64,000 nt of DNA from contig JANXOF010000089.1 of NCBI GenBank assembly GCA_025353725.1, positions 1 through 64,000 of the forward strand. The letters run 5' to 3'. The notes beneath the pieces were generated by a model that was not told the DNA's origin, did not search any database, and saw nothing but the letters and a program-made list of their open reading frames with translations. The translations under genes were made by a program, and so were the position numbers. This document shows positions 3,855-47,524 of the stretch, piece after piece (positions within the stretch are counted from its first letter, which is position 1; every line of letters begins with the position of its first letter). The stretch is from Polyangiaceae bacterium. GTDB lineage: Bacteria; Myxococcota_A; Polyangia; Polyangiales; Polyangiaceae.

Positions 3855-5240
3855 CTAATCGTCCGAGTCGCGGCGCGTGCTTGCGGCGGTTCGCAAGGCC
3901 GCAAGGCGCGCTCGAATGCGTAATTCTTCGCCGTGCGCGGTCGGCTCGTAGAGGGTTTCGCCTACGAGCTCGTCGGGAAGATACGTTTCGCCCGGGACCA
4001 CGCCGTCTTGATAGTCGTGGGCATACTTGTAGTCTGCACCATATCCGCCTTGCTTCATGAGCGTCGTCACGGCATTGCGAAGCTTCATCGGTACGGGCAA
4101 GCTTCCGTGCTGTTCGATGAGCGCTTTTGCTCGGTGCCACGCGTTTTTTACGGCGTTCGACTTTGGTGCACACGCGAGATAGAGAGCCGCGTGTGTCAGG
4201 GGGTAAAGCCCTTCGGGCAATCCCATGCGGCGGAACGCAGCGTCGGCGCTCGACACTACGACGAGTGCGCGCGGGTCGGCATTGCCGATGTCTTCGCTCG
4301 CGAAGATAAGCATGCGGCGCATCACGAAGAGTGGGTCTTCACCGGCCTCGAGCATGCGCATCATCCAATAGACAGTCGCGTCCGGATCGGAGCCGCGCAT
4401 CGACTTGATAAACGCGCTCACTACGTTGTAGTGCTCTTCTCCCGCCTTGTCGTAGAGCAGCGGCGCATTCTCCTCTGAGGCCGCAAGCAGCTCTGTGGTG
4501 ATGGATGCGTGACCGCAAGAGCGGGCATAGTCGACCGTGGCCTCCAGCATCGAAAGCGCGCGGCGTGCGTCACCGCGTGCGAGTCGCGCGAGACAGCGAA
4601 TCGCTTCCGGATCGGCCGTTACGCCGCTTAGCCCAAGGCCTTGCGAGCGATCGTCTACCGCCCGCTGTAGAATAAGGACAAGCGATTCCTCGGTCAGCGA
4701 CTCGAGGCGAAACACTTTGCATCGCGAGAGGAGCGCCGCATTCACTGCGAACGAAGGGTTCTCGGTGGTCGCCCCGACGAGGGTGATGGTTCCCGCCTCG
4801 ACATGCGGCAGGAACGCGTCTTGTTGGGCCTTGTTGAATCGATGAATCTCGTCGACAAAAACGAGTGTTCGCTCGCCGCGATACGCGAGTCGCTCCTTCG
4901 CCGCGGCGACAATATCGCGGAGTTCTTGGAGGCTTCCGAGAACCGCCGAGAATCCCACGAACTCGGACTTCGTGCGTGTGGCAATCACTTTGCCGAGTGT
5001 CGTCTTGCCGACGCCCGGCGGGCCCCAAAGGAGCATCGACGGGACGCGGTCGTTTGCGATGGCGTTTGCCAATAACTTACCGGGCCCAAGGAGGTGCGCC
5101 TGGCCCACGTAGTCGTCGACGCTTTCCGGGCGCATACGCTCGGCGAGGGGAACCGCACCTGTCGTGACGGCGTCGCGCCGTGCCGCTGCAGCGAAGAGCG
5201 TGCTCGGCTCGAAACCGCTTTTGGTTCGAGGGCGTGTCAC
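3855..5240 (-). CDS. rarA: Replication-associated recombination protein A (AAA+ ATPase)
   Basis: The 461-residue protein matches RarA/MgsA/WRNIP1: an N-terminal MRPESVDDYVGQAHLLG block, Walker A GPPGVGKT (73-80), Walker B DEIH (130-133), sensor 1 GATTENPSF, and the C-terminal tetramerisation part (MRGSDPDATVYWMMRMLEAGEDP, then the GYGADYKYAHDY segment). It acts at stalled replication forks with the polymerase, SSB and recombination proteins. Length is normal for the family. The start used is GTG at 5240, and a GTG at 5273 would add 11 residues. The mannosyltransferase gene follows 22 bases downstream on the same strand, probably co-transcribed without functional link. Confidence 0.93.
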   Translation of the reverse strand: MTRPRTKSGFEPSTLFAAAARRDAVTTGAVPLAERMRPESVDDYVGQAHLLGPGKLLANAIANDRVPSMLLWGPPGVGKTTLGKVIATRTKSEFVGFSAVLGSLQELRDIVAAAKERLAYRGERTLVFVDEIHRFNKAQQDAFLPHVEAGTITLVGATTENPSFAVNAALLSRCKVFRLESLTEESLVLILQRAVDDRSQGLGLSGVTADPEAIRCLARLARGDARRALSMLEATVDYARSCGHASITTELLAASEENAPLLYDKAGEEHYNVVSAFIKSMRGSDPDATVYWMMRMLEAGEDPLFVMRRMLIFASEDIGNADPRALVVVSSADAAFRRMGLPEGLYPLTHAALYLACAPKSNAVKNAWHRAKALIEQHGSLPVPMKLRNAVTTLMKQGGYGADYKYAHDYQDGVVPGETYLPDELVGETLYEPTAHGEELRIRARLAALRTAASTRRDSDD

Positions 5241-29836: not shown

Positions 29837-29924
29837 GGAGAGGTGACCGAGTGGCCGAAGGTACCCGCTTGCTAAGCGGACGTCCGTCAAAAGCGGACCG
29901 CGGGTTCGAATCCCGCCCTCTCCG
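29837..29924 (+). tRNA. tRNA-Ser, anticodon GCT
   Basis: An 88-base sequence has the acceptor stem GGAGAGG/CCTCTCC (7 pairs), D-loop GACCGAGTGGCCGAAGG, anticodon stem CCCGC with loop TTGCTAA, a long variable arm (GTCCGTCAAAAGCGGAC) and T-loop GGGTTCGAATCCC. The long variable arm and GCT anticodon identify a serine tRNA reading AGC/AGU. Discriminator is G (29924). No encoded CCA follows. The next base begins a 126-bp palindrome. Confidence 0.97.
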
Positions 29925-30050
29925 CTGAACGCGTGCATAACGAGACGATACCGGCGCGCTGCCGGCGTCGGTCCTCGTCTACGTACATGAGTACGTTTCC
30001 TCGGGCCTTCTTGGCAGCGCTTGGTCTCACCTCGCTCTGCACGCGTTCAG
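29925..30050. repeat. 126-bp imperfect palindrome immediately 3' of tRNA-Ser(GCT)
   Basis: The outer 13 bases CTGAACGCGTGCA (29925-29937) are perfectly inverted at 30038-30050. The inner arms continue with partial complementarity (CGAG...ACC...GCGCTGCC against the reverse of GGCAGCGC...GGT...CTCG), and the centre is ACGTAC-ATGA-GTACGT (29981-29996). The symmetry centre of the outer repeats (about 29987.5) coincides with that of the central hairpin. So the whole segment can form one long interrupted hairpin. It carries no reading frame of interest. It could be a REP/MITE-like element, a structured RNA or a tRNA terminator. Confidence 0.8.
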
Positions 30051-30597: not shown

Positions 30598-30648
<51 letters not shown>

Positions 30649-30649
<1 letters not shown>

Positions 30650-30735
30650 GGAGGGGAAGAGATTCGAACTCTTGGAGGGCGTTAACCCTCGCCGGTTTTC
30701 AAAACCGGTGCCTTAGACCACTCGGCCACCCCTCC
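30649..30735 (-). tRNA. tRNA-Ser, anticodon TGA
   Basis: The minus strand gives an 87-base tRNA with acceptor stem GGAGGGG/CCCCTCC, D-arm GGCCGAGTGGTCTAAGG, anticodon arm CCGGT-TTTGAAA-ACCGG (anticodon TGA), a long variable arm (GAGGGTTAACGCCCTC) and T-arm AGAGTTCGAATCTCT. The discriminator is G and no CCA is encoded. It reads UCA and other UCN codons and is oriented towards tRNA-Ser(GCT), about 720 bases away. Confidence 0.97.
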
Positions 30736-46399: not shown

Positions 46400-47524
46400 A
46401 TGTCCACCGACGTGATGATTTACGCGAACGGCCTATCCAAGCGGTATGGCTCGTTCCGCGCTCTCGATGACGTGAGTTTCGAGGTTCGCCGTGGCGAAGT
46501 TGTAGGCTTTCTCGGCCCTAACGGCGCCGGCAAGTCAACAACGATGCGCATCTTGACGTGCTTTATCGCGCCGACGTCCGGCACGGCGAAGGTGCGCGGG
46601 CAGGACGTCTTCGACGACACCTTGGCTGTTCGATCGAGCCTTGGCTACCTGCCCCAGCGTGCCCCGCTGTACCTGGAGATGACGGTCTACGAGTACCTTC
46701 GCTTTGCGGCGAAGGTTCGCAACATTGACGATAGCCTCTTCAAGCAGCGCGCCCGAAATGTGGTTGAGGTCTGCGGGCTCGCGCAGTCTCTCTCGAAAGA
46801 GATTCGGCAGCTTTCGCACGGCTACCGGCAACGCGTCGGCCTTGCGCAGGCGCTCATTCACGACCCGCCCATCCTGATCCTCGACGAACCCACGAGCGAC
46901 CTCGACCCCAACGAGAAGGCGGAGTTCCTCAATTACCTCAAGCAAATCGGAAAGGACCGCACGGTCCTCCTCTCGACGCACAACCTGAAAGAGGTTGAGA
47001 GCGCCTGCGCACGAGCCATTATTGTGTCTCGCGGCCGAGTCGTTGCGGACGGCGCGCTCGACGAAATTCGAGCGAAGAGCGGCCGCGTTCGCTACATCGT
47101 CTCAGTCCAGGAATCGATCGGCGCGTCGGCGTACCGCGGTACGGGCGCTCCACCCAAGCAATCGGACGTCGAGCGCGCGCTCTCCGGCCTCAAGGGAGTC
47201 AAGAAAGTCGCAGAGCTACCGACCGACGACCGCGCTCACCAGTACGCCATCGATGGCGACGACGGCGACGACATTCGCGCGGACATTTTTCGGATGGTGT
47301 CCGACAAGGGGTGGGTTCTGCTCGAACTGCACCGCGATACGCAAACGCTCGAAGACGTTTTTCGGCAACTCACGATCGGTGACGAACGCCGCAACCGTCA
47401 GCTTGGCCCGGTCGCGGAGACCTCCAACGCCTCGGACGAGGACGATTCGGACGACGAAGACGAGGATGACGATTCGGACGACGAAGAGACCGCACCGATC
47501 GAATCCAAGCGGGGCAAGCGATGA
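46400..47524 (+). CDS. GldA-like ABC transporter ATPase
   Basis: The 374-residue protein has a full ABC domain: Walker A GPNGAGKST (39-47), Q-loop, signature LSHGYRQRVGLA, Walker B LILDEPTSDLDP and H-loop LSTHNLKEV. It has a C-terminal extension of about 150 residues, where a DUF4162-type part (YAIDGDDGDDIRADIFRM) is followed by a very acidic tail (EDDSDDEDEDDDSDDEE) before SKRGKR. A GGAGG ribosome site lies at 46391-46395. It heads an operon with a permease (ATGA overlap), a GldG-like protein and a DUF4340 protein. The set resembles the GldAFG transporter of gliding Bacteroidetes. Confidence 0.85.
   Translation: MSTDVMIYANGLSKRYGSFRALDDVSFEVRRGEVVGFLGPNGAGKSTTMRILTCFIAPTSGTAKVRGQDVFDDTLAVRSSLGYLPQRAPLYLEMTVYEYLRFAAKVRNIDDSLFKQRARNVVEVCGLAQSLSKEIRQLSHGYRQRVGLAQALIHDPPILILDEPTSDLDPNEKAEFLNYLKQIGKDRTVLLSTHNLKEVESACARAIIVSRGRVVADGALDEIRAKSGRVRYIVSVQESIGASAYRGTGAPPKQSDVERALSGLKGVKKVAELPTDDRAHQYAIDGDDGDDIRADIFRMVSDKGWVLLELHRDTQTLEDVFRQLTIGDERRNRQLGPVAETSNASDEDDSDDEDEDDDSDDEETAPIESKRGKR

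Follow-up and report, generated by a model that had tools for sequence, protein, structure and literature searches.

The window analysed here is a 64,000-nt stretch from a Polyangiaceae bacterium (assembly GCA_025353725.1, contig JANXOF010000089.1, forward strand). On its plus strand a tRNA-Ser(GCT) gene occupies positions 29837–29924 as delimited by Rfam (RF00005, 53.8 bits); the gene found by ARAGORN is one base longer. The 3′ end of this gene is abutted by a full-length palindromic element of 126 bp (29925–30050, plus strand) so that, by the Rfam boundary, the first base past the tRNA discriminator is also the first base of a 13-base outer arm, CTGAACGCGTGCA (29925–29937). The partner of this arm, TGCACGCGTTCAG (30038–30050), is its perfect complement. 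The apical hairpin ACGTAC-ATGA-GTACGT is located at 29981–29996. The original prediction, made from the sequence of the window, was accurate in all these points; its statement that the apical hairpin and the outer arms have the same centre was slightly too strong: small asymmetric loops, not shared by the two halves, put the centres (29988.5 and 29987.5) one base apart. The core of the element (element positions 22–104, 29946–30028, plus strand) is the part with sequence common to copies in relatives, as judged from invariant columns and from long BLAST matches. It includes a conserved GATACC (29947–29952), which pairs with GGTCTC (30023–30028) across a conserved mismatch.

Without gaps the element is symmetric at 54 of 126 positions (43%), and by this measure its site is absent from the 15 best palindrome centres of the window. 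With small asymmetric loops allowed, the fold spans the whole element, at −71.5 kcal/mol as RNA. The mean for 200 shuffled sequences was −41.9 (SD 3.8), which gives a z-score of −7.75, and no shuffle was as good. The covariance model R1 scored the element at 126.7 bits (E = 8.6e-27), the element itself being one of the 17 R1 training sequences. Once contiguous short palindromes are set aside, one further pair of perfect 13-bp inverted arms no more than 250 bases apart occurs in the window, at 46843/46999 (46843–47011, 169 nt end to end). The tRNA-Ser(TGA) gene at 30646–30735 (minus strand) carries no hairpin element; directly behind it lies a tandem array of GATTGCC heptamers (30598–30646).

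A second full copy was found by BLAST in the same genome (G000; 6.6 Mb, 98 contigs), at G000:C5:54293-54418, with 90% identity (E = 1.1e-42), flush behind a different tRNA-Ser gene, tRNA-Ser(GGA). Existence of this copy places the window element beyond chance and agrees with the prediction of one element rather than of fortuitous pieces. The two copies have 13 differences, four of which make up two compensated pairs: element positions 8/119 (C-G to G-C) and 57/72 (A-T to G-C). No third copy was detected in this genome by R1 with 150 candidates scored.

The search for further copies in the host genome and in other Myxococcota, as had been proposed, revealed a family of dispersed copies, which together with the second copy rules out a chance palindrome. 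BLAST matches at E ≤ 0.01 were present in 14 of 57 other genomes. Matches of ~80 nt or longer, mostly covering positions 22–104 of the query, came from five genomes (G004, G007, G011, G020 and G035), with a maximum of seven per genome. At E ≤ 0.01 R1 matched 43 of the 108 family genomes (at most 32 candidates scored per genome), and at E ≤ 1e-4 it matched 47 of the 377 phylum genomes (nine candidates scored per genome). The largest number, 59 matches at E ≤ 0.01 with 150 candidates scored, was in G035. Sequence-pattern matches outside Myxococcota were not borne out: 33 of 56 stretches were scored with R1, and none of the 22 stretches without a myxobacterial title matched. Most of the distant copies retain a GTAC-loop-GTAC-like apex and CTCC-T-GSC-like motifs.

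For detailed comparison we fetched 60 regions around copies. Removal of 18 opposite-strand duplicates and one partial 25-bit match reduced 100 R1 matches to 81 copies, from 70 loci in 10 genomes; these are the best-scoring copies fetched rather than a random sample, and genes around them were called by our own script. A set of more distant copies was reduced from 47 matches to 45 by removing two on the opposite strand; two of its loci, L066 and L070, are identical to L139 and L143 of the 81-copy set. The upstream gene is out of view for L048, at a contig start, and for L137:102, located 101 nt from the start of its stretch.

The element belongs to a family of DNA palindromes of 126 bases located, nearly always in sense orientation, right at the ends of tRNA and protein genes. 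A stop codon in sense orientation lies between −7 and +9 nt of the element start in 61 of the 81 copies. In a stricter test a sense stop codon was within 12 nt of the start in 63 copies and a tRNA end in four more (Ser, Ser, Ala and Leu), compared with an antisense gene abutting the other end in 2 of 81 copies and with 65 of 3000 random positions. Among the 45 distant copies, 22 abut a stop codon and five a tRNA, three of the latter at a single orthologous tRNA-Arg site and two at tRNA-Glu; one case is antisense. Copies beside other tRNAs, for which a search had been proposed, exist for Ser (twice), Ala, Leu, Arg and Glu, though protein-gene ends are the commoner site. Pfam domains were detected in 9 of 10 upstream proteins scanned (10 of 62); they are of unrelated kinds, including DnaB helicase, transketolase, sigma-70 and DsbA. 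Hairpins of this sort are no ordinary feature of gene ends: a perfect stem of at least 10 bp was present at 7 of 167 other gene ends vs 47 of 66 element-bearing ends.

Genes that carry an element have a convergent next gene in 40 of 51 cases, compared with 65 of 199 for genes without it (p = 7e-9). TAG stops are over-represented (37 of 62 element stops vs 54 of 238 others), most strikingly in G105 (14 of 14). The tetramer CTAG is present at 23 of 62 element stops and at 15 of 238 others; CTAG as a general target was rejected, given that 25 of the 62 element stops are TGA or TAA. When upstream flanks of 400 nt from five genomes were compared, no two matched at E ≤ 1e-4, hence the 5′ junction is sharp. 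A flanking direct repeat of 2 nt or more is absent in 70 of the 81 copies; the remaining 11 have repeats of 2–3 nt.

The same genes exist in relatives without the element, which therefore has been gained or lost; mobility of the family is inferred from comparisons of this kind rather than from movement seen directly. The tRNA-Ser(GCT) gene has no element in eight genomes of the same genus, nor has tRNA-Ser(GGA) in the seven genomes of the genus with readable flanks. R1 scoring of 26 tRNA-Ser loci placed a tRNA-flush element solely at the two loci of G000, with weak matches (17.7 and 21.6 bits) elsewhere. In G007 the element caps an alpha/beta-hydrolase gene. Near full-length matches to this gene exist in each of the 12 genus genomes (69–92% identity in the other 11), and its 3′ end has an R1 match in G007 alone; G008 (L298) has a 51-bit match on the opposite side of the gene, and there are two weak matches elsewhere. 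In G004 and G009 the hydrolase stop abuts the stop of the convergent gene as TGATCA; in G007 the element and about 50 bp lie between these two convergent genes. For the copy site at a sigma-70 gene of G105, the comparison with G106 and G107 yielded distant homologues only. Dispersed copies, patchy presence and empty sites all speak for the REP- or MITE-like mobile palindromic repeat that was among the options first considered. In G010 (L299) a different hairpin of roughly 170 nt sits flush at the hydrolase stop, at the same junction as the G007 element. As this hairpin is out of reach of R1 it was read by eye and by folding; perhaps it represents another subfamily.

Between aligned copies the outer arms (29925–29937 and 30038–30050 in the window) differ in sequence and stay complementary, as seen from symmetry and from the alignment. 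Double changes affect 31 of 41 pairs, and the covariation score is 0.511, compared with 0.142 in shuffles and 0.07–0.11 with partners slid. The original prediction took compensatory changes as a sign of a structured RNA. The compensatory variation turned out to be massive; the conclusion from compensation to RNA fails for the tRNA's own transcript. On the sense strand the 81 copies have 30 G-U cells among 3067 paired cells, and 134 A-C cells; 27 tRNA-Ser genes of the same genus, used as a control, have 11 and 1 (Fisher test, p = 3e-7 for all pairs and 0.003 for outer arms). Three columns contribute 85 of the 134 A-C cells. In the outer arms, with one recurrent mismatch column left out, the counts are 22 G-U and 31 A-C, near-equal numbers that are as compatible with a strand-symmetric process as with a hairpin of the bottom strand. 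The template strand of the gene is the better folder in 78 of the 81 copies with RNA parameters and in 76 with DNA parameters (39 and 44 of the 45 distant copies, respectively), and the outermost 13 bp alone show a polarity of 48 vs 12. These counts are not independent, since core mismatches are inherited by descent; R1, whose training sequences were of the other strand, tolerates G-U pairs, so that its choice of orientation is expected, if anything, to oppose the polarity. Because G-U is no commoner than A-C and the template strand folds better, the pairing looks kept on DNA and not on the sense transcript. Maintenance on DNA is thus the more likely case, be it as a bottom-strand hairpin, as a cruciform or by copying of one arm from the other.

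These counts bear directly on two explanations in terms of RNA. The element could be a 3′-UTR or tRNA-trailer hairpin of the sense transcript with a part in stabilising, processing or terminating the RNA of the upstream gene, as the sense orientation at transcript ends, the strong fold, the compensatory changes and a core kept at an orthologous tRNA-Arg in three species (see below) would lead one to expect. We regard such an RNA as improbable, given that G-U is rarer than A-C, unlike in tRNA, that the antisense strand folds better and that relatives do without the element. An intrinsic terminator (a GC hairpin followed by a T-run) finds no support: at least five Ts within 10 nt behind the element occur in 6 of 81 copies, and no terminator-like site was detected at the window element. 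Selection could instead act on a hairpin of the bottom strand, transcribed for instance by read-through from a convergent gene; on that strand the same cells become 134 G-U vs 30 A-C, the folding is better, and convergent neighbours are frequent. The concentration of these cells in three columns and the outer-arm counts (31 vs 22), far from the tRNA ratio, weaken the case, and a scan of both strands for the sigma-70 consensus gave no promoter-like site in the surroundings of the window element. We therefore find an antisense RNA very unlikely. No Rfam family matches the window element above the gathering score on either strand, which excludes a known RNA family there.

Some copies look constrained where they sit. 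In genus g57, of which three of four species were compared at this site, the element is found behind the same tRNA-Arg(TCT) gene in G080, G081 and G083. Core identity is 82/84 for G080 and G081 and 76/84 for the pairs with G083, while the 0.5 kb upstream has identities of 401/526 for the former pair and 367/522 and 377/521 for the latter; the difference between core and flank has p-values from 4e-7 to 2e-4. Since G080 and G081 have one R1 match each (32 candidates scored), gene conversion is unlikely. Conservation of the core in three species hints that some copies may have a role for the host. One could go further and propose that the family as a whole is kept by selection as DNA punctuation, similar to BIMEs, with folded or looped DNA between convergent genes that blocks read-through or collects supercoils. 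The excess of convergent neighbours would agree with this proposal, as would the conserved core of copies that are single finds in their genomes; REPs have been reported from intervals between convergent genes, a place of expected supercoiling (PMC1525189). The patchy presence of the element speaks against it: at E ≤ 0.01 R1 leaves 6 of the 12 genus genomes and 65 of the 108 family genomes without a match (at most 32 candidates scored per genome), and two copies in G000 stand against 59 matches in G035. To host punctuation as the explanation we assign a low likelihood.

A candidate mover was indicated by a locus of G105 (L113:1714-2481; L113 is the same as L250), where an inverted pair of elements brackets the remnant of a DUF772 (IS1182-type) transposase beside the ends of two convergent genes. 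An IS1182-type transposon, or its MITE, that inserts by stem-loop replacement might accordingly have these hairpins as its long terminal repeats. Interiors of four of the five G105 pairs share sequence, downstream flanks are common to 83 copy pairs, and every G105 element stop is TAG. IS1272, of the IS1182 family, is reported to replace stem-loops without target duplication (PMC5678879). Against this, four pairs in G035 share interior stretches of 22–34 nt only, and this DUF772 transposase was detected at E ≤ 1e-10 in G105 alone among 10 element-bearing genomes. DUF772 was not found in G035, G000, G007, G011 and G004, and both Y1_Tnp (PF01797) and DUF772 are absent from G035 at E ≤ 1e-5 despite its many R1 matches. 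Across the family Y1_Tnp is present in 32 and DUF772 in 42 of 108 genomes. R1 detected no element around 44 Y1/DUF772 loci (43 distinct; best score 17.1 bits, E = 0.11); elements beside a Y1 or DUF772 gene were seen in G105 only, and the bracketing pair has no counterpart at the other DUF772 loci examined. Neither transposase tracks the element across genomes, and neither is supported as the general mover. Because IS1272 is reported to replace stem-loops and REPs are known IS targets (PMC1525189), either direction is possible: the IS may own the hairpins or may have landed on them. Ownership by an IS1182-type transposon seems to us quite improbable.

Integron-type integrases offer another comparison. 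An attC site is a hairpin behind a stop codon, with the bottom strand as the active folder, and has the boxes R″ (RYYYAAC) and R′ (GTTRRRY). Like attC, the element is a hairpin directly behind a gene with the bottom strand folding better, and IntI genes above the cut-off are common in the family, with 28 of its 108 genomes carrying one. Unlike attC, the element has no R boxes, no array and no link to an integrase: both boxes occur together in 0 of 81 copies (the 5′ box alone in one), the copies are dispersed, and IntI at E ≤ 1e-20 was not found in G000, G004, G007, G011 and G065, with a fragment below the cut-off in G035. We rejected the identification with attC; use of the elements as attC-like sites by an integron-type integrase is extremely unlikely. 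In G104, a genome of the same family (contig C115, L324), an integron integrase is accompanied by six attC-like sites on one strand, canonical-looking (GCCTAAC...GTTAGGC type, 56–78 bp) and without a match to R1.

Among known repeats, the element is most readily compared with REPs and BIMEs. According to PMC3733652, the GTAG and CGTC super-families consist of dispersed imperfect palindromes, mostly intergenic, at gene 3′ ends, often with convergent neighbours and patchy across species, and the element shares this intergenic, gene-end and often convergent placement. In the species shown there, REPs between convergent genes are mostly under 20 bp from both 3′ ends and others are near the upstream 3′ end; GTAG REPs often supply a TAG stop. 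The same text gives REPs a length of 20–40 bp, a tag (GTAG or CGTC) that stays unpaired at one end and frequent G-T pairs, whereas the element has 126 bp, free outer arms, a conserved asymmetric core and G-T pairs rarer than A-C. A REP tag just outside the foot was present in 1 of 81 copies for GTAG and in 1 of 81 for CGTC, so that by length and tag the element falls outside the REP definition. The association of REPs with RAYT (Y1) genes has no parallel here, no R1 element having been detected at the Y1 loci examined.

TIRtrons/TIRYT likewise form families of long repeats that can be self-complementary; a Y1 tyrosine transposase is flanked by them (PMC3733652), unlike the R1 elements, none of which lies beside a Y1 locus examined. 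YPAL/RU-2 of Yersinia (about 167 bp) and RU-1/ERIC (127 bp) are of the same length class and are also dispersed, gene-adjacent small mobile repeats. A copy of RU-1 has been described at an ORF 3′ end (PMC2759123, PMC2267715). The comparison rests on lengths and descriptions; in the present family the outer arms vary from copy to copy, and the junctions lie exactly at stops and tRNA ends. With IS1272/IS1182 (PMC5678879) the family has in common palindromic targets and lack of target duplication, as well as the remnant between the G105 hairpins; the IS inverted repeats are of 16 bp vs hairpins of 126 bp, and the transposase is missing from most element genomes tested. In the broad sense the elements are MITEs (dispersed, gained or lost between relatives, with inverted ends); for a strict MITE one would require flanking direct repeats, lacking in most copies, and an autonomous partner, suggested in G105 only. 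The best reading is to file the family as a new variety of gene-end palindromic repeats, REP/MITE-like in placement. Among the top matches listed in a search of the open-licence PMC literature, no element of this kind is named for Myxococcota.

Taken as a whole, the observations are best explained by a Myxococcota family of mobile palindromic DNA repeats, moved as a folded DNA strand and placed at gene ends; we estimate the probability of this reading at about 0.58. The element probably acts as a folded DNA strand: it would move as a folded single strand or as an extruded cruciform, handled by a hairpin-recognising enzyme. Its entry or survival at gene ends could be due to the short non-coding gaps between convergent genes, with junctions that are often palindromic or contain TAG. 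The arms may stay near-perfect through copying of one arm from its partner on the DNA itself, by fold-back or template-switch correction, or because folded DNA is needed. Some copies might since have acquired a role for the host where a gene ends, as suggested by the one genus in which the core is conserved at its site and a single copy per genome was detected. A bolder version, which we hold tentatively and think more doubtful than not, is that of a new class of mobile DNA in which a folded bottom-strand hairpin is aimed at 3′ ends of tRNA and protein transcription units, free arms are rewritten by fold-back copying and some copies serve the host as gene-end punctuation. On balance, the original interpretation is partly supported.

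With these repeats a long-palindrome family would join the gene-end repeats, in a phylum for which the literature listings consulted name none. Since the arms change freely yet remain complementary, with G-U intermediates scarce, the family may provide a natural test of how base pairing is kept at the DNA level without selection on a transcript. It also raises the question of what machinery can position DNA precisely where a gene ends, and in the direction of that gene, at tRNA and protein genes alike.

Several copies have a composite structure. Tandem direct duplications of the element were observed at L157:1511-1752 (135 bp apart, behind a tRNA-Glu gene) and at L154:1501-1773 (151 bp apart). 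Loci L094 and L129 appear by eye to carry nested copies, in which an old element, truncated near its apex, is represented by its 5′ part between the gene stop and a complete new element; the nesting lies just upstream of the element start (minus strand, position 4125/4126), and the 3′ part of the old element was not seen. Distant copies from other Myxococcota families (L153, L155, L165 and L167) lie within a longer palindrome with a common arm, CTAGGAGCCTGACCC(A/G)AG, as recognized by eye.
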